Assembly: GCF_040500525.1 (NCBI RefSeq)
Contig: NZ_CP159403.1
Location: forward strand, 15,001 to 79,000
DNA length: 64,000 nt
Source: Azospirillum formosense
GTDB taxonomy: Bacteria > Pseudomonadota > Alphaproteobacteria > Azospirillales > Azospirillaceae
Reading direction: 5' to 3'
The position numbers were made by a program, and so were the translations under genes. Under the pieces are notes generated by a model, which worked only from the letters and a program-made list of their open reading frames with translations, was not told the origin of the DNA and did not search any database. Positions within the stretch are counted from its first letter, which is position 1. Each line of letters starts with the position of its first letter. Shown here one piece after another: positions 49,785-64,000 of the stretch.

Positions 49785-52700
49785 CTACCTTTGCGGGAAG
49801 CGAACCGGCAGGTCGAGGGCGCGCGCCGGAAGCTCGTTGCGCGTTCCGGCGCTGATCGCCGCCCCCAGGACCAGGACGGTGTCGCGCACCGGCTGTCCGT
49901 CGATGGTCTGCGTCGGCAGGGCGACGCGCAGCAGCAGGCCGTCCCGCGACGACGACGGGGCGTGGCCTTTCAGCAGGCGCAGCAGCGCCCACGGCCCGCG
50001 TTCCGCCAGGGTGATGGTGTCGCCGGTCGCCGCGGCGGTTCCGCCCGCCGGCGCGCCCTTCGGACGGAAGGGCGACCCGGCGGCCCAGCGGGCGCTCAGC
50101 AAAACCGGCTGGCCTGGCGTCCAGGCGAGCGTTCCGCCGTTGGCTGCCGCGCCCACCGCGCTGGAGCCGGAGCGCACCGACCAGTCGATGATGTGCTCCG
50201 CCCCGACCTCCTGCGCGCGGTTGGCGCCGTAGGTGAGGCGGACGCCGACCGGCGCTGGGCGCGCGACGGCTTCCAGCAGGGGGCGGGCGGCCTCCATCCG
50301 CTCCATGAAGGCGGCGACCTCGGGGGTCGCGGTCCGCATCACCGCCGCCCGGTGCTCGTCGAGCTGCCGGTAGAAGCGGCGGACGTCCTGCGGGTCGGCG
50401 TCCGGCGCGCCGCGCGCCTGTTCGGAGCCGACGAAGGGGAAGCGCCCGGCGAGGGTCTGCGCGAAGGCGGCGGACAGCTTCGACAGGGCGACGTCGCTGT
50501 CCGGGATCGTGGCCTCCACCGGCGGTCGGGGCGGGATCGGCAGATGCGCGACGACGGCCGGCTCCTCTGTGATGGCGGGCGCGACGGCGGGCGGCGGCGC
50601 CACGGGGTCCGGCGAGGGGCGCGCGGCAGGCGGAGCCGCCGCGACGGGCTTGGCCGGCTCGGCTTCGGGCGCAACGGGCTTTGGTTGCGCAGGCTTGGCT
50701 TCGGCGGGTTTGGCTTCGGCGGGCTTGGCTTGTTCAGGCTTCGGCGGCTCCGGCTTCGGCTCGGCCGGCTTGGCAACCACGGCGGGCGGAGCCTCGGGAG
50801 CCGGTGCGGGCAGGGCGGCGGCCAGGGCGTCCGGCAGCGCGATCACCGCCGGGTTCAGGGTCAAGGCCCCGCCCTCGCCCACCGCGAACAGGGCGCCGGT
50901 CTGCGGCGCGTCCAGCGCCAGGACGGCGGCGCGGGCGCCGGTTGCGGCGGTGGACAGGGCCTCGGTGATGCGGTCGGTGGTGTCCCGGCCCGGCAGATCG
51001 GCGATGGCGGCCTTCTGAAGCACCACACGGATCGCGTCGGGCAGGCCGCGGGCGGGGTCCTGCAAGGCACCGGCGATGGGCCAGGCGACGGCCTCGGCGA
51101 CGGCGCCGGTCAGGCGGCGGACGTCGTCGACGTCCTCGGCGGTCGGCGCCTCCGGCAGGCCGCGCAGCCGCTCGGCCAGGGCCTCGGCGCGCTGGCGGAG
51201 CGGGTTGCGGCCGTACAGCTCCTCGGCCAGCGGGGCGGCGAGCTGCACCGATTCCGCGCGCACCGCCGCGGCGATGGTCCGGGCGTCGAGGTTGGGCAGG
51301 TCGGCGCCCGCGGCGATGCGCGTGATGTAGCCGTCCGTCGCCGTCATCGGCGAACGGGGGACGGCGCCGTAGACGCTTTCGGCCAGCGCGTTCAGCTCGT
51401 CGAAGCCGCTGTTGCGGCGGAAGCGGTCGTAGCGCTCTAGCGCGTCGCGCCGCCCGCCGATGCGGTCGAGCTGCTCGGCGAGGCGGCGGAAGGCGGGCAG
51501 GTCTTCCACCCGCTGCGGGTTGGCCACCGGCGGCAGGTCGGCCATGGTGGCGCTGGGCAGCAGCGCGTCACGGATCGGCCGCAGCACCGAGCGGCGCAGC
51601 GTGACCGAGGCGAGCCGCTTCTTGTCCTCGTCGAAGGCGCTGAACAGCGAGGTCGGCAGCAGCGGCGTGGCGAGGGGACTGCGCTCCATCACCGCCGTGG
51701 CGGCGATCACGTGCCCGACCAGAGGCCCGTCGGTCACGGCGTCGCGCGCCAGCAGCGCCCGGCGGAGGTCGGCGGTGGCGGCGGCGACCGGCGGGCTGCC
51801 GGCGGACACGCTGGACACGCCCTGCCACGCGGCGACCGACAGGCCGGCGACCGAGGCGGCGAGCGCCGCCTGCGCCATCCGGCGGCGCTTGTGGGCCTGC
51901 TGGTAGGCGGCGTCGGACGGCCGCCCATAGCCGGCCTCGGCGAAGGCCCGGCCCGGCAGCAGGTCGCGGGCGAAGACCGGACGGCGCCCGCCAGTGGCCG
52001 GGGCGTAGGCGCCGGTCAGGGCGATGCCGCGCAGCGGGAAGGGCTCCGCCTGATCGTCGCCGCCTCCATCTCCTCCCAGGGCGCCGTCGAGGAACAGCGC
52101 CAGCGGATGGCGCAGCGTGTCCAGGGACGCCGGCAGCAGCGGCAGGCGCACCCCGGCGGTGCCGGCGGCGAAGGCGTCGGCCTCCAGAACGGCGATGTCG
52201 GCGGCGATGGCCTCGAACGCCTCGTCGATGCGGCGCGGCTCGAAGGGCTTCGCCCAGTCCTGCGGGTTGGTCCATCCCAGCACGCCGTCCAGCAGGGCCG
52301 ACGGCATGGCGGCGCAGAGGTCGGCGAAGCCGTCCAGCGCCTCGGCGCGAACCACGACCACATGCACGGGGGCGACCACGCCGAGATCGTCGCGCAGGGT
52401 CCGCAGGCGCTCCCGCAGGGCGGCGCCCCGCTTGGCCAGCGCGTCGCGCGGGCCATGGTGCTTGGCGGGGCGCTCGGCGGCGGCGCTCAGCTCGTCGGCG
52501 CCGACCATCAGCAGGACGCCGTCCAGCGGGCGGCGCATCGGCCGCTTGCGCATCGCCGCGACCAGCGCCGGCCAGGACGCGCCCAGCCGGGAGCCGTCGG
52601 CGGAATCGGCGCCAGCGTGCAGGATCGCCGCCCCTTCGCAGAACCACCAGCAGCCGTTCTCGCCGTTGCCGTCCTCGGGCCAGCGGACATGGGTCGGGTC

Positions 52701-53120
52701 GGTGGCGAGCAGGGCCGGGCCGCCGACGCCGAAGGCGAGGAACCACGGGATGTCGCCGCGGCGCAGGGGACCGCGCATCTGCCGCGTCAGGATGTCCAGC
52801 CCCTCGCCGTAGATGCGGGCGTTGGGCGGCGTGTCGGCGGCGGCCTTCTTCGGCGGTGGCACCTCTGCGCGGACGCGCAGCGGCGCTGGCGGGGCGGTCC
52901 GGCGCGCGGGCGCCTTCTTCCGGACGGTGCCCTTGGCGGCGGGCTTGCGCCGCCAGCCGCGCAGCGTCGGCCAGACCATCCGGCCGAGGCGGTAGAAGAT
53001 GTAGAGCGGCAGCGCCAGCAGCGCGTAGGGCGCCAGCGTGACGGCGAAGGACAGCAGAGTGACGATGGCGGAGCCGATGGTGGAGAGCACCAGCTCCAGC
53101 GTGAGCATCAGTAGGACCAT
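49785..53120 (-). CDS. Divergent TssM/IcmF-like protein without Walker A
   Basis: The 1111-residue protein has the TssM architecture. An N-terminal membrane hairpin (6-45) is followed by a cytoplasmic domain (PWFLAFG, CWWFCEGAAIL, PLDGVLLMVGADEL, APVHVVVVRAEALDGFADL). A third helix lies at about 413-438, then a large periplasmic region. Its C-terminal end holds the TssM-type ARW...GPWALLRLLKG block. The nucleotide site is lost: where TssM has GxxGSGKT/S, this has GVGGPALLAT (131-140). A Pro/Ala/Lys-rich insert (about 768-843, with KPAEAKPAEAKPA repeats) interrupts the periplasmic part. It overlaps the TssL-like gene by 13 nt. Confidence 0.83.
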   Translation of the reverse strand: MVLLMLTLELVLSTIGSAIVTLLSFAVTLAPYALLALPLYIFYRLGRMVWPTLRGWRRKPAAKGTVRKKAPARRTAPPAPLRVRAEVPPPKKAAADTPPNARIYGEGLDILTRQMRGPLRRGDIPWFLAFGVGGPALLATDPTHVRWPEDGNGENGCWWFCEGAAILHAGADSADGSRLGASWPALVAAMRKRPMRRPLDGVLLMVGADELSAAAERPAKHHGPRDALAKRGAALRERLRTLRDDLGVVAPVHVVVVRAEALDGFADLCAAMPSALLDGVLGWTNPQDWAKPFEPRRIDEAFEAIAADIAVLEADAFAAGTAGVRLPLLPASLDTLRHPLALFLDGALGGDGGGDDQAEPFPLRGIALTGAYAPATGGRRPVFARDLLPGRAFAEAGYGRPSDAAYQQAHKRRRMAQAALAASVAGLSVAAWQGVSSVSAGSPPVAAATADLRRALLARDAVTDGPLVGHVIAATAVMERSPLATPLLPTSLFSAFDEDKKRLASVTLRRSVLRPIRDALLPSATMADLPPVANPQRVEDLPAFRRLAEQLDRIGGRRDALERYDRFRRNSGFDELNALAESVYGAVPRSPMTATDGYITRIAAGADLPNLDARTIAAAVRAESVQLAAPLAEELYGRNPLRQRAEALAERLRGLPEAPTAEDVDDVRRLTGAVAEAVAWPIAGALQDPARGLPDAIRVVLQKAAIADLPGRDTTDRITEALSTAATGARAAVLALDAPQTGALFAVGEGGALTLNPAVIALPDALAAALPAPAPEAPPAVVAKPAEPKPEPPKPEQAKPAEAKPAEAKPAQPKPVAPEAEPAKPVAAAPPAARPSPDPVAPPPAVAPAITEEPAVVAHLPIPPRPPVEATIPDSDVALSKLSAAFAQTLAGRFPFVGSEQARGAPDADPQDVRRFYRQLDEHRAAVMRTATPEVAAFMERMEAARPLLEAVARPAPVGVRLTYGANRAQEVGAEHIIDWSVRSGSSAVGAAANGGTLAWTPGQPVLLSARWAAGSPFRPKGAPAGGTAAATGDTITLAERGPWALLRLLKGHAPSSSRDGLLLRVALPTQTIDGQPVRDTVLVLGAAISAGTRNELPARALDLPVRFPQR

Positions 53121-53836
53121 GACAGCCCCATGTCCTCGACCGCGGCGCGGGCGCCGCTCAGATCGCGTTGGATGCCGCCGACGGCGCCGGCCCACAGCAG
53201 GTGCGAGACCACCAGGAACAGCACGGCGGTCCCGCCGACCGCCCACCACCAGCGGCGTGCGGACGGCGCGGGGTAGCCGGGCACGGCGCCTTCCGGCGGC
53301 TCGCAGGCGCGCGGGCTGGGGTGGCTGGCCGCGGCGCGCTCGCCGACGACGATGCGGTGCAGGGCGGGGCGGCGGGCGGTCGCCTGGGCGTCGTCGGGAA
53401 AGCCCAGAGCCAGCGCCGCGAGATAGACGGCGGCCAGCCCGCGGTCGGCCTTGGCGCCCTGGCGGATCAGGTCGTCGGCCTGGACGAACAGGGTCTGCAG
53501 CGTGGCGTTCGCGCCGAACAGACGGCTGGAGACCACGGCGTCGGCGGGCCGCGTCTGGGCCAGCGCGCGATCGGCCAGCATGGCCATGGCGAAGGCCGCC
53601 TTGACCACCGTGCCGTGCGCGCCCGGCCCCTGCGAGACGGCGGCGCCGCTCATCCCGTGGAGCGTCGCGGTCAGGCGGTCGGCCACCGTCCCCGCCGGGG
53701 CCTGCGCGTCGGCGCAGCCGGCGAGCAGGTCCTCCTGGAAGGCGCGGAACAGGGCCAGCGTGCCGGCGGGCTTGCTCCCGGCGGGCATGGCCTTCGGTGC
53801 AGGGGCGGATTGGGCCGCAGCGGTTTGGGTGGTCAC
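53108..53836 (-). CDS. Divergent TssL/DotU-like protein
   Basis: The 242-residue protein has a helical cytoplasmic domain and one C-terminal membrane helix at about 201-220 (WWWAVGGTAVLFLVVSHLLW). The domain shows the DotU pattern: KAAFAMAMLADRALA, LFGANATLQTLFVQADDL and AAVYLAALALGFPD. The tail-anchored topology is that of TssL. A short Pro-rich stretch precedes the helix. GTG 53836 overlaps the TssJ-like stop (GTGA). Confidence 0.78.
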   Translation of the reverse strand: MTTQTAAAQSAPAPKAMPAGSKPAGTLALFRAFQEDLLAGCADAQAPAGTVADRLTATLHGMSGAAVSQGPGAHGTVVKAAFAMAMLADRALAQTRPADAVVSSRLFGANATLQTLFVQADDLIRQGAKADRGLAAVYLAALALGFPDDAQATARRPALHRIVVGERAAASHPSPRACEPPEGAVPGYPAPSARRWWWAVGGTAVLFLVVSHLLWAGAVGGIQRDLSGARAAVEDMGLSWSY

Positions 53837-54306
53837 GGCGTTCCCTCCGTCAGCGGAGCCACGGTGAAGCTGTCCCGTCCCAGCCGCACGTCCAGGGCGC
53901 CGGCGCCGTCCAGACTCTGCCGGTGGGCGCCGGACGCGCCGTACCGGGCGTAGACGAGGGTTCGGGTCGGGGTGGCAGGAGATGGAGCGAAGGGAGGCAG
54001 GCTGTGCAGCAGCACGCTCTGGCCCGGCACCATCTCCCAGGAGGCGATGGCGATGCGGTTGCCGGCCTCGGCGCTCAGCGCCTCGCGGTCGCGGAACCAG
54101 CCGGCGGCGTCGAGACCGGCCAGCCGCCCGGCCAGCGCCGGATCGGCCACCCGCACCACGTCGACGGCGACCGGGCGGCGCCCGTTGGCGTCGGGCTCGG
54201 CGACGATGCGCAGCACGGGGGCGTCGGCGCGCCCCGCGCCGGGCGTGGGGACGCCCGCGGCGCAGCCGGCAAGCGTCAGGGACAGGATGATCGCGAGGCG
54301 CTTCAT
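53833..54306 (-). CDS. Putative TssJ-like outer-membrane lipoprotein
   Basis: The 157-residue lipoprotein has the lipobox LAGC (Cys15). A compact beta-rich domain follows, with RRPVAVDVVRVADPALAGRL, WFRDREALSAEAG and VPGQSVLLHSLPP. The order of basic strand, DxxALxxE-type segment and PGQ turn recalls TssJ/SciN, but similarity is weak. Assignment leans on its place directly before TssL- and TssM-like genes. ATG 54306 is preferred, with GAGG 11 nt upstream, over GTG 54315. Confidence 0.62.
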   Translation of the reverse strand: MKRLAIILSLTLAGCAAGVPTPGAGRADAPVLRIVAEPDANGRRPVAVDVVRVADPALAGRLAGLDAAGWFRDREALSAEAGNRIAIASWEMVPGQSVLLHSLPPFAPSPATPTRTLVYARYGASGAHRQSLDGAGALDVRLGRDSFTVAPLTEGTP

Positions 54307-54319
54307 GTCAGCCACCGCC

Positions 54320-54715
54320 TCAGCCCCCGCCGCCGGGCGCCGACTGGCCGACGCAGACGTAGCCCGCCGGGGTATGGCGGTACCAGTTGCCGGTCGCCTC
54401 GGCGCAGGGGGCGAGGACGCGGTCGTTGCGCTGCGGCTCCGCTGCCGCCGGGGCCGGGGCGGGGTCCATTTCCCGGCCTGTGGCGGGACGGTTGGTCACG
54501 ACGAAGCCGTCCTCGTCCTCCTCCACGATCATCACGTAGCGCGCGCGCTTGGCGGGGTAGCGGATGCCCACGTCGTAGTCGCCGTCGGCCACCTTCTCCA
54601 GGATCGCGCCGGGGCGGTCGCCGCCCAGCGGCGCGCAGCCCGTCCCGGCGAGCAGGACCGGCAGCAGCGCCGTCGCGGCGATCAGGGTTCGCATCATCGG
54701 GGTGTTCCTGCTCAT
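54320..54715 (-). CDS. Small lipoprotein, unknown function
   Basis: The 131-residue protein has a lipoprotein signal with lipobox GTGC near residue 27. Its body has a strand-rich region (DYDVGIRYPAKRARYVMIVEEDEDGFVVTNRP), a Pro/Ala linker, and two cysteines (LAPCAEATG, YVCVGQ) that could form a disulfide. I do not recognise the family. ATG 54715 overlaps the channel gene stop by 4 nt. It sits between the channel fusion and the TssJ-like gene, and could bridge them. Confidence 0.7.
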   Translation of the reverse strand: MSRNTPMMRTLIAATALLPVLLAGTGCAPLGGDRPGAILEKVADGDYDVGIRYPAKRARYVMIVEEDEDGFVVTNRPATGREMDPAPAPAAAEPQRNDRVLAPCAEATGNWYRHTPAGYVCVGQSAPGGGG

Positions 54716-57700
54716 GCCGGAATCGCCTTGCGCTGGGCGTTGATCGCGGCGGCGGGGCCGGCGGCCTCCATCAGGTCGGGCGGGGTCGGTTCGATGCCGG
54801 CCTCGGCCAGCGTCCGGTAGACGGAGCGCCAGACCAGCTCGGGCACGACGAAGCTGGCGTCGTAGTCCTCGACCCAGAAGAACAGGTTGTACTTGCACAG
54901 CCATTGGCCGTTGACGCCGCGGATGCCGTCGTAGCGGACGAAGGGCGGGCCGCCGGTGGCGCTGGGCATCACCTTGTCGGCGTTCTGCAGGGCGGTGGTC
55001 AGCAGGCCGCCCATCTGGCCGGGGTCGTGGCGGGCGTCGGCGTAATATTCCAGCTTCATCGACACCCGCTCGACCGCGCTGAAGTTGACGACGGTCGCCT
55101 CCGACACCTTGGCGTTGGGCATGGCGACGATGAAGCCGGCGACGTTGCGGATCCGCACCGTGCGCCACGTCATGTCGACCACGACGCCGCGCACCAGATC
55201 GGTGATCTGGATGCTGTCGCCGATCTGGAACGGCCGCTCGATGTTCAGGACGATGCCGGAGAAGACGTTGGCGATGTTCGCCTGGATGGCGAGGCCGATG
55301 ACCATGCCGACGAGGCCGGAGGCGGCGAGCAGGCTGGTGATCGGCTGCTTCAGCACGAAGGCGATGATGCCGCAGCCGGCGAAGCCGAAGACGATCAGGG
55401 TCGAGAAGCGGCGGACGATGCCGGGAATCTTGCGCTGGGTGCGGATTTCCAGCGGGGTCCAGACGAAGCGTTCCAGCGTGCGGTCGACCAGGATGGCCGG
55501 CACAATCCACCACAGCACGTTGACGCCGTTCACCACCATGGCGATCCCGCTCGGCGGCAGCGTCGCCACCGCCTGGTCCAGCGCGATGTTGCCGGCGGAC
55601 ATCAGCAGCAGCGGCCAGGACAGAATGCGCATGAACAGCGTCTGGATCTTCCAGAACTGGCCGCGGTCGCGGCGGTCCATGACGGCGGCGAAGACCGCCA
55701 GCACGGCGCTGAAGATGGCGATGTAGACGAAGAAGTCGCGGTGGATGAAGTCGCGCGCCGCCGGGGCGTCCGGGGTGGCGACCACGCCGAAATCGACCCG
55801 CGAGAAGTCCGGCTGCGGGCGCCCGAAACCGACGTAGTTGGGATCGCCCTCGCTGCCGACCGAGGCGACGTCCTGCGAGATCCAGGCGCGCGACAGCCGC
55901 CAGCCGGGCGACGGCGCCAGCACCCGCTTGGCGCGGAGCTGGTCGAGCAGGGTGGAGCTTTCGCTCTCGCCCTCCAGCGCGCGGCGGAAGCGGTCGGCGA
56001 GGCCGGGATCGACGGCGGACGCGGTTTCCGCGGCGGCCATCGCCTTCAGCTTCTCCACGAAGTCGTTGGTGTCGACCAGCGACATGCCGAGAACGTCGGT
56101 GACGAACATCACCGTGTTCCGGTTCTGCGTCCGGTGGCGGAAGCTGACGCCGACCGTCTGGCTGCCGTAGGGCGGGCGCTGGTCGAAGACGTTCAGGGCG
56201 AAGCGCCCCTCGATCCGGTAGGCGACGTAGGTGGTGACCTCGCCGCGCTCCTCGCGGTAGGGCTTGCCCAGCTCGACCGGCTTGACCGCGTTGGTGAAGA
56301 CGACGTCCGCCGGGTTGAAGGCGCCGCGGTAGCGGAACCAGATCGTCAGGTTCAGCGTCGCCTCGTTGGCGTCCGGATTGAGGTCACGGATCTCGTGGAG
56401 CTGGACGCCGGTGTAGATGACGTCCGTCTTGTACATGAAGCGGTCGTTGACGTAGAGCGCCCGGCCCTTGGTGACCTCCTCCAGGAAGTTGGAGACGCCG
56501 GCCTCGCGGATCGGCTGGAGCTGGGTCAGCGCCGCCACCGGGTTCAGGCCGTTGTAGGAGGCCATCATCACCGGCAGGGTCGCTTGGCCCCGCGCGTCAA
56601 AGGTCCAGGTGCCGACCGTGCCCTGGAAGGCGGTCTCGGCGCGGTCGTGGTCGGCGATGGCGCGGCGGAGCGCCTCGCCGTCCGGCTTGCCGGCGGCGGT
56701 ATTCGTTTTAGCGATGGCTCCGGCTATGAGGTCCACGCCGTCGGCGCCCAGCGCCGCCGCCCAGTCGGGCACCGCGTTGAAGCGCTTCACATACTGGCCG
56801 TAGAAGCGCTGCGCCCGCTCGTTCGCCGTGTCGAACAGCACGGGCGAGGACACCAGCAGGCCGTGGCCGTAGGCCTCCGGCGTCAGCGCCTTGGGGTTGG
56901 CCTGGGCCTGGGCGACGATCTCGGTGCGGAAGGCCGACGAGGCCATCTCCGAGCTGCCGGCGATCAGGTTGCGCACCCCGGCGTCGCGCAGCGCCACCAC
57001 CACCCGCGCGCTGTCCACCGCCGACCCGATGACGATGACGGCGCCGGTCGGCATCTTCTCCTTGACCGCTTGGGCCAGCGCCGGCAGGGCGCCGGCACCG
57101 CCGCGGCCCGGCGCGAAGGTCCACTGGCCGACCAGCCTGGTGCCGAAGCGCTGGAGGATCGCGTCGAACTGCCCGGCCTGGAATGCTGCCTGCTCGCTGT
57201 CCTCGCGGACGATGGCGACGGTCGGCTCGCCCACCACGTTGCGCACGTAGTTGGCGAGGAAGCGCGTCTCGTGCGTGCGGTCCAGCGTGATGCTGAACAG
57301 CCAGGGGCTGGGCGCGGCGTCCGCCGGGCGGACCAGCGGGCGCGGGGCGATCAGCGGGATCTGCCGCTGGGCGTAGATCGCCGTCGCGCTGTCGGCGGCG
57401 TCCGGCGTGTGGCCGATCACCGCGAGGACCGAGGGATCGTTGGAGACGCGCCGGGCGATCTCCAGCGACTTGCCCTTGTCGCCCTCGTCGTCGAAGGGCT
57501 TGACCACCACGGGACGGCCGGCGACGCCGCCCGCCGCGTTGATGGTGTCGGCGCGCAGCGCCGCCCCCTTGCGCAGGGCCAGCCCCAGCGCCGCGTCCGG
57601 CCCGCTGAGCGGCCCGACGACGGCGACGGTCAGCGGCTCGCGCGCGCTGTCGCCGAGGAAGCCGGCGCGGACGACCAGGGAGACCAGCACGGTGACGAGC

Positions 57701-57795
57701 ATCGCCGCCGCCAGGATCAGCGCGAAGCGCGCCTTTTTGGTCAGGTGCGACCAGCGCAGCGGCGGCCGGGAGCGGGGCTGGAGCGAGCTCAGCAT
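54712..57795 (-). CDS. Ligand-binding/MscS channel fusion protein
   Basis: The 1027-residue protein joins several modules. An N-terminal membrane anchor lies at 23-45. A type I periplasmic-binding domain of the branched-chain amino acid receptor kind follows (about 53-430; LTVAVVGPLSGPDAALG, IGHTPDAADSATAIYAQ). A beta-rich domain at about 445-610 (KTDVIYTGVQLHEIRDLN, TIWFRYRG, YRIEGRFALNVF, PPYGSQTVGVSF) resembles the extracellular domain of pentameric ligand-gated channels. Four or more helices come next (about 690-860). An MscS pore and beta domain (822-1015; GLVGMVIGLAIQANIANVFSG, RPFQIGDSIQI) ends it. It looks like a ligand-gated or ligand-modulated small-conductance channel. ATG 57795 has no open neighbour before it; a repeat element lies upstream. 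Confidence 0.87.
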   Translation of the reverse strand: MLSSLQPRSRPPLRWSHLTKKARFALILAAAMLVTVLVSLVVRAGFLGDSAREPLTVAVVGPLSGPDAALGLALRKGAALRADTINAAGGVAGRPVVVKPFDDEGDKGKSLEIARRVSNDPSVLAVIGHTPDAADSATAIYAQRQIPLIAPRPLVRPADAAPSPWLFSITLDRTHETRFLANYVRNVVGEPTVAIVREDSEQAAFQAGQFDAILQRFGTRLVGQWTFAPGRGGAGALPALAQAVKEKMPTGAVIVIGSAVDSARVVVALRDAGVRNLIAGSSEMASSAFRTEIVAQAQANPKALTPEAYGHGLLVSSPVLFDTANERAQRFYGQYVKRFNAVPDWAAALGADGVDLIAGAIAKTNTAAGKPDGEALRRAIADHDRAETAFQGTVGTWTFDARGQATLPVMMASYNGLNPVAALTQLQPIREAGVSNFLEEVTKGRALYVNDRFMYKTDVIYTGVQLHEIRDLNPDANEATLNLTIWFRYRGAFNPADVVFTNAVKPVELGKPYREERGEVTTYVAYRIEGRFALNVFDQRPPYGSQTVGVSFRHRTQNRNTVMFVTDVLGMSLVDTNDFVEKLKAMAAAETASAVDPGLADRFRRALEGESESSTLLDQLRAKRVLAPSPGWRLSRAWISQDVASVGSEGDPNYVGFGRPQPDFSRVDFGVVATPDAPAARDFIHRDFFVYIAIFSAVLAVFAAVMDRRDRGQFWKIQTLFMRILSWPLLLMSAGNIALDQAVATLPPSGIAMVVNGVNVLWWIVPAILVDRTLERFVWTPLEIRTQRKIPGIVRRFSTLIVFGFAGCGIIAFVLKQPITSLLAASGLVGMVIGLAIQANIANVFSGIVLNIERPFQIGDSIQITDLVRGVVVDMTWRTVRIRNVAGFIVAMPNAKVSEATVVNFSAVERVSMKLEYYADARHDPGQMGGLLTTALQNADKVMPSATGGPPFVRYDGIRGVNGQWLCKYNLFFWVEDYDASFVVPELVWRSVYRTLAEAGIEPTPPDLMEAAGPAAAINAQRKAIPA

Positions 57796-57823
57796 GGGGT
57801 GTCCGTTTGGCGTTGGGCGGCTT

Positions 57824-58024
57824 CCCTCTCCCGCCTCGGGAGAGGGAAGGGGCCCGCGAAGCGGGAAGGGTGAGGGTGAGTGCAAGGATCAGGCGGTCGC
57901 GCCGTTGGACGACCCTCACCCTCCCGCGCTTCGCGCGGGTCCCTCCCTCTCCCGGGGCTCTCGGCGGCCAAAGGCCGCCTGACGCCGTCAGCGCCCGCAA
58001 GCGGGCGCGAGAGGCGGGAGAGGG
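57824..58024. repeat. Intergenic palindromic repeat element, copy 3 (longer)
   Basis: This is the longest copy, about 200 bp. It has the same outer blocks (CCCTCTCCCGCCTCGGGAG plus AGGG at the left, inverted at the right), and an extra inserted stretch in its right half (GGCGGCCAAAGGCCGCC). It lies between the MscS-fusion gene and the type I adaptor gene, and may separate the two transcription units. Confidence 0.8.
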
Positions 58025-58051
58025 AAATGGTGGCAACCGGTCCGGCCATCC

Positions 58052-59452
58052 TCATTGCTCCTGCATCGCGTGCTGGAGGCCGTTGAGGACCGGCGAGAAC
58101 ACGTAGTCGAGGATGGTGCGCCGCCCGGTCAGGATGCTGCAGGTCACGCGCACGCCGGGGAACAGCTCGTAGGTCTTGCCGCCGTAGTCGAAACGGGTCA
58201 CCGGCAGCTCGACGCGGACCTTGTAGTAGGACTGCTTGTTGGCGTCGAGGAGCGTGTCGGGGCTGATCGTCCGCACCCGCCCCTCGATGTGGCCGAAGCG
58301 CGAGGCGTCGCCGCCGGCCAGCGTCACCACCACCGGCTGGTCGGGGCGGACATAGCCGATGTCCTGCACCGGCAGGCGGGCGTCCACCACCAGCTTGCCG
58401 TCGCGCGGCACCAGCTCCACCACCGTCTCGCCGGCCTTGACCACAGCGCCCTTGGTGGAGACGGCCAGCGTCTTGACGATGCCGTCCATCGGGGCCCGCA
58501 GGCTGCTGCGGTCCAGGCTGTCCTGGTAGCGGGTCAGGCGCTGCGACAGCTCGTCGTGGTTGCGGCGGGCCTCGTCGAGGGCGTTGCGGCTCTCCTCCTC
58601 GTACTTGCGGCCGATCCACACCAGCTTGCTGCGCGCCTCGGCCAGCGCCGCCTCGGCCTGGGCCAGCGTGGCGCGGTCCTCGGCGATGGCGCTGCTGACG
58701 CGGGCGTCGTCGCGCAGCAACTCCAGATGCTTCATGCGGTTGGTGATCTCGCGCTTCAGCAGGGTCTCGCTGATGGAGAGCTGCTCGCGGATCAGCCCCT
58801 GCGCCACCTGGGAGCCGCCGATGCGCGCCCGCACGGCGGCCACCTGCTGCTCGCGCTGGGCGATGTCCTGGCGCTGGATGTCGAGGTCGGAGGCCAGCCG
58901 GTCGCGGCGGGCGCGGAACAGGTCGCGGGTCTGCGCCACCAGATCGGGCCGCTCGCGCAGCAGACGGTCGGGGAAGGCGATGGTCTCGCGGCGCCCGACC
59001 TCCGCTTCCAGCCGCGCGGTGTCGGCCGACAGCGAGCCGAGGCGCAGCTTCAGCTCCTCCAGGTCGGCGCGGATCTTGGTCTGGTCCAGCTCGACCAGCA
59101 CCTGTCCGGCGGTGACCGAATCGCCCTCCTGAACCAGGATGTCGCGGACGATGCCGCCCTCGAAATGCTGGACCGACTGGTTGTAGGACAGCGGCACCAC
59201 GTCGCCGGGCGCGCTGCTGGAAACGTTCAGCTCGGCGATGGCCGCCCAGCCGAGCGCGGCGAGGAAGGCGGCGATGCTGACGACGAACAGGCCGTCGCCG
59301 AACCGGCTTTCGCTGTCCGTGGGCGACGACCCCGTCAGGGAGGCCGGAAGGGCGGTCGGGATGCCTGTCGTGCCGGTGGTTGGGATGACCGGCGGCACGG
59401 CGGGAGCCGGGCCGGCGGCCGGCTTGCGGGTCAGCAGGGGAAGCGGCTTCAT
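58052..59452 (-). CDS. Type I secretion periplasmic adaptor (HlyD family)
   Basis: A 466-residue membrane-fusion protein has a membrane helix at about 53-70 (VSIAAFLAALGWAAIAELN). A lipoyl-like beta half (PGDVVPLSYNQSVQHFEGGIV, VQEGDSVTAGQVLVELD) is followed by a long coiled coil (about 120-300). The C-terminal HlyD signature reads LRAPMDGIVKTLAVSTKGAVV and ELVPRDGKLVVDARLPVQDIGYV. It links the ABC exporter to TolC. It overlaps the ABC gene by 4 nt (ATGA). Confidence 0.94.
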   Translation of the reverse strand: MKPLPLLTRKPAAGPAPAVPPVIPTTGTTGIPTALPASLTGSSPTDSESRFGDGLFVVSIAAFLAALGWAAIAELNVSSSAPGDVVPLSYNQSVQHFEGGIVRDILVQEGDSVTAGQVLVELDQTKIRADLEELKLRLGSLSADTARLEAEVGRRETIAFPDRLLRERPDLVAQTRDLFRARRDRLASDLDIQRQDIAQREQQVAAVRARIGGSQVAQGLIREQLSISETLLKREITNRMKHLELLRDDARVSSAIAEDRATLAQAEAALAEARSKLVWIGRKYEEESRNALDEARRNHDELSQRLTRYQDSLDRSSLRAPMDGIVKTLAVSTKGAVVKAGETVVELVPRDGKLVVDARLPVQDIGYVRPDQPVVVTLAGGDASRFGHIEGRVRTISPDTLLDANKQSYYKVRVELPVTRFDYGGKTYELFPGVRVTCSILTGRRTILDYVFSPVLNGLQHAMQEQ

Positions 59453-61131
59453 GGCGTCACCAGCCCCGCCGGCTCGCGGGCGGCCACGGTGCCGTTCGGT
59501 TGGTCGAGGTCGAGCACCAGCGAGGCGCCCTGGAGGATGCGCGGGTCGTGGGAGGCGATGATCACCGTGTGGCCGCTCCGCGCCAGCTCGATCAGCGTGC
59601 GGTAGACGGTGGCGGTGCCCTCGGAATCCAGCCCGTCGGTCGGCTCATCGAGCAGGATCAGCCGGCCGCCGACCGCCAGAGCGCGGGCCAGCGCCAGCCG
59701 GCGGCGGTGGCCGGTCGGCAGCTCGTGGCCGAAGTTGCGCAGCGGCGTGTCGAGCCCCTGGGCGCAGTCGGCCACCGTGCGGTCGGCCCCGGCGCGGTGC
59801 AGGACGGCGTGCAGCTCCGTCTCCGACAGGCGCGGGTTGGCGAGCAGCAGATTCTCGCGGATCGTCCGGTTGAGGAACACCGGCTCCTGCGGCAGCAGCC
59901 CGATCTGCTGGCGCCACCAGGAAGGGGCGAATTTGCGGATGTCCACGCCGTCGGCCAGCACGGCACCCTCCTGCGGGTCGGCCAGACCGGCGATCAGGCG
60001 GATCAGCGTCGATTTGCCGGAGCCGTTGCGGCCCTTCAGCACCAGGATGTTGCCGGCGGGCACCGACAGGTTGAGACGGCGCAGCAGCGGCGTGACGCCG
60101 CCCGGCGGGGTGAAGGTCAGGTCGCGCAGCTCCAGCGAGCCGGCGTAGCGGGGCAGACTGGTGCCGCCGGTCGGCTCGACCGCGGTGCGGGCGAACTGCT
60201 CCAGACGGACCTGCGCCTGACGGGCCATCGCCAGGGACTCGCCGATCTGCGCCAGCCGCGTGAAGGGGGCGAGCGCGCGGCCGACCAGCAGGTTGATGCC
60301 GATCAGCGAGCCGACGTCCAGCTCGCCGCGCACCACCAGGACGGCGCCGGTGGCGATCACCGCCACGCCCTGGAGCGCCTGGAGGCTTTGCGCGGCCGAC
60401 TGGGCGCGGCCCTGGCGCATCGACATGCGCTCGCGGACCACGCGCAGGGCCTTGGCCGCGCGCTGCCAATCGCCGAGAAGCGGCTTGGCGCCGCCGAACA
60501 GGGCGACCGCGTCGCGCCCGACGATGGCGGTGGTGACCAGCCCCTGGGCGTCGGCGCCGGCCTGGGCGAGGTCGCGCCCGACCGCCCGCATGTCCGCCTG
60601 GGCCAGCAGCCCGGCGGCGATGGCCAGCAGCGTGAAGACGAGGCAGATCGCCGCCAGCGGCCAGGAGATCAGCGCCACCACGAGGATGAAGCCGAGCGCG
60701 AAGGGCAGGTCGAACAGCGTCGCCAGATTGGCGGAGCCGAGCGCGGAGTCGATCTGCTCCGGCGCCCGCAGCGCCTCGCGCCGCGCCGCGTCGCCCTCGG
60801 CCGACCCGGCGCCGCTGCGCGCGGTCATCAGGATGCCGAAGGCCCCGGTGCTCAGGCGTTCGTGCTCGGCCCGCCCGATGCGCCCGGCGATGCCCAGCCG
60901 GACATGGCGGAACAGATGCTCGAAGGCGATGGACAGGACGACGCCGACGGTCAGCGCCGCCAGCGTGGAATCGACGCCGTGCGTCACGTAGCGGTTCAGC
61001 ACCAGCATCGTGTAGAAGGACGAGGCCAGCCCGAGCAGGTTCGCCGCCAGCGACGCCGCGAAGACGCGGGCGGTCAGCCGCAGGTTGGCGCGCAGCCGCA
61101 GCGCGAGAAGCCCGATGGCGCCGCCGTTCAT
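59449..61131 (-). CDS. Type I secretion ABC exporter
   Basis: A 560-residue half-transporter has six helices and no N-terminal C39 or C39-like domain. Its ATPase has Walker A GRNGSGKST, Walker B LILLDEPTDGLD and H-loop ASHD. The signature is LPTGHRRRLALARAL in place of LSGGQ, an uncommon variant. It exports a protein with an uncleaved C-terminal signal, most likely the large protein encoded at 62660-64000. It overlaps its TolC gene by 4 nt. Confidence 0.93.
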   Translation of the reverse strand: MNGGAIGLLALRLRANLRLTARVFAASLAANLLGLASSFYTMLVLNRYVTHGVDSTLAALTVGVVLSIAFEHLFRHVRLGIAGRIGRAEHERLSTGAFGILMTARSGAGSAEGDAARREALRAPEQIDSALGSANLATLFDLPFALGFILVVALISWPLAAICLVFTLLAIAAGLLAQADMRAVGRDLAQAGADAQGLVTTAIVGRDAVALFGGAKPLLGDWQRAAKALRVVRERMSMRQGRAQSAAQSLQALQGVAVIATGAVLVVRGELDVGSLIGINLLVGRALAPFTRLAQIGESLAMARQAQVRLEQFARTAVEPTGGTSLPRYAGSLELRDLTFTPPGGVTPLLRRLNLSVPAGNILVLKGRNGSGKSTLIRLIAGLADPQEGAVLADGVDIRKFAPSWWRQQIGLLPQEPVFLNRTIRENLLLANPRLSETELHAVLHRAGADRTVADCAQGLDTPLRNFGHELPTGHRRRLALARALAVGGRLILLDEPTDGLDSEGTATVYRTLIELARSGHTVIIASHDPRILQGASLVLDLDQPNGTVAAREPAGLVTP

Positions 61132-62525
61132 CGCTGGTCTCCCGTGCCGCGCCGGCCCGGATCGCGTCCGCCTTGATCGCGGAAAGCGCCGCGGCCCATC
61201 GGGGCCAGCTTCGGCATCGGCTTGGTCTGGATGTCGGTGGCGTTCAGCCGGCCCATGGCGGCGAGCAGACGGTAGCCGGCCAGCACCAGTTCCGTCTCCG
61301 CCGCCGCGGCGTCGCTGCGCGCGTTGATCAGCGTCGTCTCGCCCGACAGGATGTCGATCAGCGACCGGGTGCCCAGCTCGCGCTCCGACCGCGCCACGTC
61401 GAGGAAGCCGGCAGCGAGGCTCGCCTGATCGTTCAGCAGCTGCACCTGGGCGCGGGCGCTTTCCAGCCGGTTCCAGCTGTTGCGGACGGTCTCCAGCACC
61501 GTGCGCTCCTGGTCGGCCCAGCTGGCGTCCGCGGCCCGCAGGTCGGCCTCGGCCAGCCGGATGCTGTTGAGCGCGGTCAGGCCGGTGTTCAGCGAGAAGG
61601 TGACCTGGAGCTTGAACAGCAGCTCGTTCTGCCGCCCCGGCTGGCCGGCGACGTCGCGCTTGACATTGCGCTCCACGAAGCCGTCGATCCGCGGGTAGAG
61701 CGTGCGGCCGCGCACCGAGGTCACCGCCTCCTGCGCCGCCGCGGTGGTCAGGGCCAATTCCTGAAGGCGCGGGTTGTGGCGGCGCGCCTCCTCCACCGCC
61801 GCGTCCATCGAGACGGGCAGGCCGGCGCGGGTCATCGCCAGGACCTGGGCGTTGCCGACCTGGAAGGGAACATGGCCGAAGAAGGCCTGGAAGCGGCTGA
61901 GCGCGTTCTGCGTCGCCTCCTCCGCCGCGACGCGGCGGGCCTGGGCGCCGGCGAGCTGGCTCTTGGCCTGGAGCACGTCGGTGGAGAAGCCGAAGCCCTC
62001 CTGAAGGCGGACCTCCTCCAGCCCGGTCTGGCGGCGGATGTTGTCTTCGGACTGGCGCGCGAAGGCGAGCAGCTGATGGGCGCGGACGAGGCTGGCGTAG
62101 GCGGTGAGGCCCTCCACCAGCAGCTCCTGCCGGGTGCGCTCCACCGCGATGTCGGCGCGGACCAGCGTCACCTGGGCGCGCCGGATGTCGGCGTTGGTCG
62201 CGTCGAAGTCCCAGATCAGCTGCGTCGCCCGCGCCGAGAACTGCGAGGCGTTCATGTCGGTGTTGGGCAGGCCCGCCGGCTTGGTCGTGCTCTCGCGCCC
62301 GCCGTTCGCCGACAGGCTCAGCGTCGGGTACCAGCCGCCATGGCTGACCCGCAGGGCGTTGCGCGCCCCGTCGGCGGCGGCCTCCGCCCCGCGCAGGCGG
62401 TCGTGGCTCTCCGTCGCCTTGCCGATCAGCGCCACAACCTCATCGCGCGGTGCTGCAACCAGAGATTGTGGTGCTCCGGTCAGAAGCGGAAGCGCAACCG
62501 TGGCGATAAGACAAAACTTGTGCAT
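61128..62525 (-). CDS. TolC-family outer-membrane channel
   Basis: A 465-residue outer-membrane efflux protein has a signal peptide (MHKFCLIATVALPLLTGA). Two internally repeated long helical halves (GWYPTLSLSANGG, GFSTDVLQAKSQLAGAQARR; SIRLAEADLRAADASWADQ, LGTRSLIDILSGETTLINAR) are typical of type I secretion TolC proteins. A basic Gly/Arg tail ends it. It is the first gene of TolC-ABC-HlyD, an order seen in adhesin-exporting systems. Confidence 0.93.
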   Translation of the reverse strand: MHKFCLIATVALPLLTGAPQSLVAAPRDEVVALIGKATESHDRLRGAEAAADGARNALRVSHGGWYPTLSLSANGGRESTTKPAGLPNTDMNASQFSARATQLIWDFDATNADIRRAQVTLVRADIAVERTRQELLVEGLTAYASLVRAHQLLAFARQSEDNIRRQTGLEEVRLQEGFGFSTDVLQAKSQLAGAQARRVAAEEATQNALSRFQAFFGHVPFQVGNAQVLAMTRAGLPVSMDAAVEEARRHNPRLQELALTTAAAQEAVTSVRGRTLYPRIDGFVERNVKRDVAGQPGRQNELLFKLQVTFSLNTGLTALNSIRLAEADLRAADASWADQERTVLETVRNSWNRLESARAQVQLLNDQASLAAGFLDVARSERELGTRSLIDILSGETTLINARSDAAAAETELVLAGYRLLAAMGRLNATDIQTKPMPKLAPMGRGAFRDQGGRDPGRRGTGDQR

Positions 62526-62659: not shown

Positions 62660-64000
62660 TCATGAATTTTCTGCGACCGGCACAATCGTCGATGCATGGG
62701 TTGTGGCGTGGTGTGTGTCCGCGCTGTGAACGGCCATTGCCCAATCCCCCGCGTGCGCATCCAGACCATTCTGCACAACCGGAACGGTGTCCGGCAGCCC
62801 CAGCCCGGAGGAGAGCAGCGCCGCGTAGTCGAAGCGCCCGTGATCGGCCTGCGGCGAAGGCGACGCGGCCAGCGGCTGGCTGTGCAGCTGCGCCGCGACG
62901 GTGGCCTGCGCGTCGAAGGCGACGCCGGCCACCAGGCGGCTGCTGCCGTCGGCCATGGTCATGCTGGTGGTGCCGAGGATGTGGTTGCCGGCCAGCGTCG
63001 TGTCCGCCGGGGTGGCCGTGGTGGCGATGGACAGGATTCCGGCCTCGGCCAGCGTGCGCAGCTCGCCCGGCTGGCTCACCCCGTCGCCGTCGGCGTCCTG
63101 CCAGACCTGGAGCGTGGCGAAGCTCTCGTCCGCGGCGTCGATGCGCCCGTCATGGTTGCTGTCGAGCGAGGCGAGCGCCTCCAGGCTGCTGTTGAAGCCG
63201 CCACCGTTCGAGCCGGCTCCGAAATGCTCCGACACGAGTTCGCGTCCGTCGTCGATCCGCCCGTTGTGGTTGTCATCGCGCACCAGCAGCGCGTTACCCT
63301 TGCCGACCCAGCCGGTCCGGTCTGCCACGCCGTCGCCGCTGACGTCGAACAGGACGCCGTCCGTCAACGCCCGCAGGGCCAACCCGTCGCCGGCCATGTC
63401 CAGCACGATGGGGTCGCTGGCCACCGTGGTCAGCTTGACGTTGTCGATGCGCAGCACCGGGTTGACGCTGTTGTCGCTGGTGTCGGAGGTGCCGAAGCCC
63501 AGCGACAGGGTGCTGTTGGCCGGGATGACCACGCTGAACTTGCCGCTGGCGCTCGCGTCCTTGGCGAGCAGCGTGACCACGCCGTTGACGCTGACGAAGG
63601 CGAAGTCGTGATAGCCCGGGTCCGAGAAGATGAAGGTCCAGTCGAAGGTCAGCGTCGTGTCCTTCGCCACCGTGACGGTGCTGGCCAGCTTCATCGCGTG
63701 GCCGAAGGACGGGACGGTGCCGGTCGCCGCCGCGATGGAGCCGTGGGCGAGGCCGAGGAAATCCTCGAGTTGGGTCGGCGTCCGGCCGCCCGCCGAAGTC
63801 AGGGTGCCTTCGTGCCCGTCGCCGGTCGCGCCCACCGTGGCCCCGCCGGTGTAGCTCCAGCCGGTCAGCCCCTTGTCGAAGGAGCCGTTGGGGATCAGCA
63901 CGCCGGGATGCAGGGTGACGGTGTCCGTCGCGGCGGAGAAGGCGCTGCCCTCGCCGAGGGTGATGGCGGTCTTGGAGCCGGCGCTGCCGGTGGTCTGGTC
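62660..64000 (-). CDS. Large type I secreted protein, C-terminal part (runs off the window)
   Basis: The frame is open to the window edge, so only the last 446 residues are seen. Near the start is a carbohydrate-binding-like beta sandwich (VLIPNGSFDKGLTGWSY). After it come calcium-binding Asp-rich motifs of EF-hand or dockerin type: DVSGDGVADRTG, DDNHNGRIDDGREL, DSNHDGRIDAADE and DADGDGVSQPGEL. A His/Ala/Ser-rich end (HSADTHHATTHAS) follows, with no Cys, suiting an uncleaved C-terminal type I signal. It is probably an adhesin or surface protein exported by the adjacent system. Confidence 0.83.
   Translation of the reverse strand, partial: DQTTGSAGSKTAITLGEGSAFSAATDTVTLHPGVLIPNGSFDKGLTGWSYTGGATVGATGDGHEGTLTSAGGRTPTQLEDFLGLAHGSIAAATGTVPSFGHAMKLASTVTVAKDTTLTFDWTFIFSDPGYHDFAFVSVNGVVTLLAKDASASGKFSVVIPANSTLSLGFGTSDTSDNSVNPVLRIDNVKLTTVASDPIVLDMAGDGLALRALTDGVLFDVSGDGVADRTGWVGKGNALLVRDDNHNGRIDDGRELVSEHFGAGSNGGGFNSSLEALASLDSNHDGRIDAADESFATLQVWQDADGDGVSQPGELRTLAEAGILSIATTATPADTTLAGNHILGTTSMTMADGSSRLVAGVAFDAQATVAAQLHSQPLAASPSPQADHGRFDYAALLSSGLGLPDTVPVVQNGLDAHAGDWAMAVHSADTHHATTHASTIVPVAENS

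Follow-up and report, generated by a model that had tools for sequence, protein, structure and literature searches.

The pores of the MscS superfamily (E. coli MscS, MscK, MscM, YnaI and YbiO among them) consist of three transmembrane (TM) helices, TM1 to TM3, and are followed by a cytoplasmic domain; large members also have extra TM helices and periplasmic domains. In the bCNG channels, an MscS pore is combined with a cyclic-nucleotide-binding domain. Here we analyse a channel gene of Azospirillum formosense, located at 54712-57795 on the minus strand of a 64,000-nucleotide stretch of contig NZ_CP159403.1 (the window), whose product has the pore and cytoplasmic domain of this superfamily. As in the bCNG channels, a ligand domain has been added to the pore, and some relatives of the window protein also carry a cNMP_binding domain. 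Unlike in bCNG, the added sensor is predicted to be periplasmic, and is made of a periplasmic-binding protein domain (PBP) and the ligand-binding domain (LBD) of a pentameric ligand-gated ion channel (pLGIC). None of the MscS-family structures returned by a sequence search of the PDB is named as having a solute-binding or Cys-loop LBD domain, only names being compared.

The front of the protein recalls the fusions of type I PBPs to pLGICs described in 2004 by Tasneem et al. in Magnetospirillum magnetotacticum and Bradyrhizobium japonicum (PMC549065). In both cases the type I PBP comes first and is followed by a Cys-loop-type LBD, but the described fusions end in a four-TM pLGIC pore, whereas in the window protein the Pro-loop motif is missing and the LBD leads into two extra TM helices and then an MscS pore. 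That study makes no mention of MscS, and we found no earlier report of the MscS version in the literature searched, which excluded most subscription journals and preprints. On balance we favour the view that the protein is a natural chimeric channel, in which a pore swap would have given rise to a ligand-tuned or ligand-gated MscS with a role alongside adhesin secretion or retention.

Domain layout and identity of the middle domain

Translation of 54712-57795 yields a single stop-free frame of 1,027 amino acids in which a TM anchor, a Peripla_BP_6 domain, a beta domain of about 230 residues, two extra TM helices and a full MscS pore follow one another. Pfam recognises Peripla_BP_6 at residues 54-413 (E 5.9e-34) and MS_channel_2nd (PF00924) at residues 841-906 (E 8.6e-16), and has no match over residues 420-690. 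The features of the gene are as follows.

54712..57795, minus strand: channel gene, 1,027 aa, start ATG at 57795
57655..57738, minus strand: N-terminal TM anchor, residues 20-47 (AlphaFold2 helix, hydrophobic stretch)
56557..57636, minus strand: type I periplasmic-binding domain, Peripla_BP_6, LivJ-like, residues 54-413 (Pfam, Foldseek)
56422..56466, minus strand: GRALYVNDRFMYKTD linker and first strand, residues 444-458 (alignments A1 and A3)
55768..56460, minus strand: Cys-loop/pLGIC-type LBD, residues 446-676, with a helical insert at about 576-622 (AlphaFold2, Foldseek, profile matches)
56158..56175, minus strand: pLGIC Pro-loop position, residues 541-546 (PPYGSQ); P-x-[DE] absent in the MscS-pore family
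55561..55740, minus strand: two extra TM helices joining the LBD to the MscS core, residues 686-745 (AlphaFold2 helices 686-708 and 713-745)
55354..55554, minus strand: MscS TM1-TM2, residues 748-814 (AlphaFold2; phmmer match to E. coli MscS from residue 754)
55237..55341, minus strand: MscS pore helix TM3, residues 819-853, opening with the ITSLLAASGLVGMVIGLAIQANIANVFSGIVL region (phmmer, AlphaFold2, conservation)
54796..55233, minus strand: MscS cytoplasmic beta and C-terminal vestibule domains, residues 855-1000 (MS_channel_2nd at 841-906, AlphaFold2)

An original prediction, made from the letters of the window alone, had proposed that one gene fuses an anchor, a type I periplasmic-binding module, a beta domain and an MscS pore, and the uninterrupted frame together with the domain calls bears this out. 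The identical domain order is found within one frame in about 75 additional genomes, and is split only in a few short or fragmented assemblies; a frameshift between binding domain and channel was looked for in these relatives and none was found. A chance reading frame was rejected because orthologues with 30-70% identity retain one frame. The exact start of the gene is uncertain, since the ribosome site preceding the ATG is weak and an in-frame TTG is present at 57885. A plain osmotic MscS paralogue was also considered and set aside: the 6.1-Mb genome has five other MscS genes, and the LBD query matches nothing else there.

Among solved structures, the sequence of the first part comes closest to LivJ-type binding proteins, and that of residues 754-944 to E. 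coli MscS (phmmer to 2vv5, E 2.5e-13). The full-length AlphaFold2 model, which like all our models is a monomer, has a pLDDT of 83.7 and a pTM of 0.70, with TM helices at residues 20-47, 686-708, 713-745, 748-786, 792-814 and 819-853. Starting from a cytoplasmic N-terminus, this helix count would make the PBP and the LBD periplasmic and the vestibule cytoplasmic, the orientation that MscS requires. Features of the MscS superfamily, namely the MS_channel beta domain and an MscS-type TM3, are present, and TM3 is the most conserved segment of the family (mean 80%, 14 of 35 columns at 90% or more). In a by-eye alignment the hydrophobic gate and the glycine hinge, at what we take to be their E. coli MscS positions, are retained. 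The pLGIC four-TM pore is absent: within the family set the pLGIC transmembrane domain profile matches just three proteins (L117, L118 and L122), none of them with an MscS pore. A Pfam scan of the window protein likewise finds no C-terminal cNMP_binding domain.

The original prediction had read the middle beta domain as a Cys-loop/pentameric-channel LBD from short motifs, which we locate at residues 464 (VQLHEIRDLN), 484 (TIWFRYRG), 526 (YRIEGRFALNVF) and 541 (PPYGSQTVGVSF). The fold model, the structural matches and the profile matches agree with this reading. Indeed, AlphaFold2 models residues 437-686 with confidence (pLDDT 82.7 and pTM 0.74, most strands exceeding 90) as a beta sandwich of the pentameric-receptor type: AChBP and nAChR extracellular domains fill all 50 matches listed by Foldseek against the PDB (E about 1e-9, probability 1.00, TM score to target about 0.6). 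Against a viral library only two matches pass 1e-3, the best being annotated as a neurotransmitter-gated channel LBD. For profile comparison we used an alignment of the window LBD with 47 relatives (A1; 38-49% identity within the LBD). Its profile matches the LBDs of binding-protein-linked pLGICs (E 1.5e-19), these match ordinary pLGIC LBDs (E 8e-19), and a direct match of A1 to ordinary pLGIC LBDs is also obtained (E 1e-6). In hhalign, the real comparisons score 127 and 48, against 25 for the best of 30 column-shuffled controls and 13-14 for the reversed profile. Furthermore, a search with A1 over 398 genomes returns PBP+LBD proteins and ordinary pLGICs, including an ordinary pLGIC of the window's own genome (E 6.5e-7, a value that, as in our other single-genome searches, refers to one genome). 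Judged by fold and profile comparison, the middle domain is homologous to the Cys-loop/pLGIC LBD. Recognising it required structure and profile-profile comparison: the Neur_chan_LBD profile check that accompanied the original prediction gives no direct Pfam match, and alone would have misled.

The ordinary pLGIC of this genome (L127:745-2328:-; G000:C2, about 1,106,900-1,107,650) has an LBD, a four-helix pore and an FPLD Pro-loop, and both channel types therefore coexist in one cell.

One front on two pores

The PBP+LBD front is found on a pLGIC four-helix pore in 13 proteins of the window's bacterial family and other Pseudomonadota (L117, L118, L121, L122, L178, L180 and L182-L188), versus dozens with an MscS pore. 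In a quick tree of the LBDs, with some long branches, all 34 LBDs of MscS-pore proteins form one clade (SH-aLRT 97), and the PBP-linked LBDs are split from ordinary ones with a support of 97. The side of the LBD that would face the pore differs as well. The Pro-loop motif P-x-[DE] is present in 25 of 25 pLGICs (13/13 PBP-linked and 12/12 ordinary) versus 0 of 62 MscS-pore proteins, counts that come from related sequences and not from independent events; MscS-pore proteins usually show [YF]-G at this position. The arginine preceding M1, found in all pLGICs examined, is not kept in them either. In these sequences, the Pro-loop difference is fixed and tracks pore type. The simplest history would be that an MscS pore took the place of a pLGIC pore on a single occasion and that the interface was remodelled, and the MscS version thus appears to be a natural pore swap.

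Conservation is unevenly distributed along the front. The PBP part superposes on LivJ 4gnr (Foldseek E 8e-22, TM score 0.91) and has the two-lobed Peripla_BP_6 fold. The loops where an amino-acid carboxylate is usually bound (residues about 130-136 and 150-156) are variable across the family and, in a by-eye alignment with 4gnr, lack the Ser and Thr of that site in the window protein. Within the LBD, 44 of 231 columns are conserved at 90% or more, and the YVNDRFMY junction is invariant among the aligned MscS-pore orthologues (A1 and A3) but not conserved in the pLGIC-pore forms. A variable PBP pocket together with a conserved LBD, junction and TM3 is the pattern one would expect if the sensor can change while the transducer it feeds stays fixed.

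Of 82 genomes belonging to the order, 38 have a close orthologue (identity of 46% or more across about 255 aa). A broader scan gives 77 loci, many of them on short metagenomic contigs, from Rhodospirillales, Magnetococcales, Beta- and Gammaproteobacteria and Desulfamplus. The PBP+LBD+MscS family extends over two phyla; in Azospirillum, orthologues are located on megaplasmids. The C-terminal tail is longer in some Azospirillum and Magnetococcales-like proteins; in L114 and L120 it corresponds to a cNMP-binding domain. Where scanned, such four-module relatives (PBP, LBD, MscS pore and cNMP-binding domain) would have the potential to sense both sides of the membrane. Five further proteins (L115, L116, L119, L172 and L173) are similar in length to these two. 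One Magnetococcales-like genome (G426) has five LBD-family matches (L172-L175 and L144), some on fragmented contigs. Many carriers outside Azospirillum (L059-L113) come from magnetotactic lineages (Magnetospirillum, Magnetospira, Magnetococcales, Desulfamplus), a prevalence that may reflect database bias or biology.

The adhesin and type I secretion neighbourhood

The channel gene is surrounded in the window by the following genes, all on its own strand.

62660..64000, minus strand: 3' end of a 2,630-aa cadherin-like putative adhesin and type I secretion system (T1SS) substrate extending past the window (ORF L192:1164-9050:-; Pfam Cadherin_4 E 4.7e-15)
61128..62525, minus strand: TolC-family outer membrane protein (Pfam OEP E 5e-47; TIGR01844)
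59449..61131, minus strand: type I secretion permease/ATPase (domain profile matches)
58052..59452, minus strand: HlyD-family type I secretion adaptor (TIGR01843 E 1e-111)
54320..54715, minus strand: small putative lipoprotein, conserved in Azospirillum and near kin
53833..54315, minus strand: second small putative lipoprotein, 160 aa (same neighbourhood)
53108..53836, minus strand: DotU/TssL-like protein (weak Pfam DotU match, E 8e-5, below cut-off; neighbourhood)
49785..53249, minus strand: IcmF/TssM-like protein, true start probably within the frame (Pfam IcmF-related_N E 3.5e-27)

Since the ATG of the first small putative lipoprotein overlaps the channel stop (ATGA), its gene is probably translationally coupled to that of the channel. 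The gap between the HlyD and channel genes (57800-58050) is packed with palindromic GC-rich repeats of the CCCTCTCCCGAGGCGGGAGAGGG type, REP-like, and at the other end the IcmF/TssM-like and DotU/TssL-like genes (49785-53836) adjoin the type I secretion/adhesin cluster.

Azospirillum and its near kin have the cadherin-like giant first, followed by TolC, ABC transporter, HlyD, channel, two small putative lipoproteins, DotU-like and IcmF-like, and same-strand T1SS genes are present at every locus of this group. The order is channel-ABC-HlyD-TolC in other Rhodospirillales and Magnetococcales, channel-TolC-ABC-HlyD in Desulfamplus and TolC-ABC-HlyD-channel in Methylovulum. That the same genes recur in varied orders speaks for a functional link and not for shared ancestry of a block alone. 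Outside the Azospirillum group, a same-strand T1SS accompanies 22 of 48 non-redundant loci, a giant upstream frame (an open frame of 1,000 aa or more whose end lies no further than 700 bp upstream) 21 of them, and at least one of the two 37; the giant-frame count is slightly generous, the upstream frames of L070 and L078 being largely masked sequence. Giant neighbours at L075, L113 and L093, taken as examples, carry LamG, cadherin and Ig-like adhesin domains; a Pfam scan of the one at L065 finds no domain. None of ten pLGIC-pore loci checked has a same-strand T1SS, one having a T1SS on the opposite strand; these ten and two cNMP-type loci without a same-strand T1SS led us to reject a T1SS link general to all PBP+LBD channels.

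In the majority of lineages that could be scored, the MscS-pore gene lies in an adhesin/T1SS cluster. Because it does so across two phyla, the channel probably works in step with adhesin export and may tune adhesin secretion or retention. By analogy, a precedent for a channel in an adhesin/T1SS operon would be found in the Salmonella pathogenicity island SPI4, where the SiiA/SiiB proton channel reportedly controls how the T1SS adhesin SiiE is retained (PMC6272769). SiiA/SiiB, SiiCDF and SiiE resemble the window cluster in that an inner-membrane channel is encoded with a T1SS and a giant adhesin, but SiiAB, described as MotAB-like, is another kind of channel and no relative, so that the parallel is functional only (PMC6272769).

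Proposed mechanism and rival explanations

The ancestor would have consisted of a binding protein, an LBD and a pLGIC pore; the MscS pore would have replaced the latter, and the pore-facing side of the LBD, at the Pro-loop, would have been remodelled after the swap. Binding of a solute would alter the conformation of the periplasmic domain, in which the pocket loops differ from species to species, and the near-invariant YVNDRFMY junction and the conserved LBD would relay this change to the membrane. There, the two extra helices and MscS TM1-TM2 may set the tension threshold or the open probability of the MscS gate, and the channel may adjust the flow of ions or solutes, or turgor, at the envelope in concert with the secretion of the giant adhesin or its retention on the surface. 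True ligand gating, in which the LBD after a single swap drives an unrelated pore, possibly of other symmetry, and couples a solute to adhesin secretion or retention, is a tentative proposal that we hold with less confidence than the natural chimeric channel favoured at the outset.

Several observations weigh against these views. The LBD is pentameric in known cases and MscS is heptameric; the LBD may therefore not assemble or gate in the known way. In a tree of the PBP alone the MscS forms are not one clade, with weak support, and this tree is not decisive on a single origin of the MscS-pore forms. The two cNMP-type loci checked have no T1SS nearby, and some MscS-pore loci, many on short contigs, show neither a T1SS nor a giant frame. 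Finally, scanning the LBD directly against Pfam, by itself and in 48 family members, gives no pLGIC match, and a PDB profile search with it returns nothing significant. These last two results are what one would adduce for an unrelated beta sandwich whose Cys-loop likeness is coincidental, a reading strongly disfavoured by the specific Foldseek matches, by chained and direct profile matches far above shuffles, and by the identical placement of the domain behind the same PBP in proteins with a real pLGIC pore.

A more serious rival, although we consider it rather unlikely, is that the PBP and LBD are structural and, within the periplasm, anchor the channel to the secretion apparatus or the adhesin, gating being purely by tension. 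The conserved adhesin/T1SS context, the loss of the pLGIC coupling residues and the poorly conserved pocket loops would all fit this; the PBP nevertheless retains its full LivJ-like fold, the LBD and junction have conserved columns beyond the needs of a spacer, and the cNMP-binding domain of a subset suggests regulated gating. It is more improbable still that the MscS part does not usefully conduct and that the protein is a transmembrane receptor signalling through its cytoplasmic vestibule or partners, given that TM3 is the most conserved segment and that the gate and hinge positions are retained in the by-eye alignment.

A natural chimeric channel of this kind would provide natural evidence that the extracellular domain of a Cys-loop receptor is able to serve a wholly different pore. 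It opens to test how an LBD may signal without its usual Pro-loop contact to the pore, whether a five-fold domain is able to sit on a seven-fold channel and whether chemical tuning of tension-gated valves is possible, and the same front on two pores offers matched natural sets for ready comparison. In at least one case the annotation names just a substrate-binding protein and hides the channel: the relative in Azospirillum sp. B510 (NC_013856.1, 126140-129154) is entered only as 'ABC transporter substrate-binding protein'. Our analysis suggests a new channel component of adhesin/type I secretion clusters, carried by the tractable plant-associated Azospirillum brasilense.

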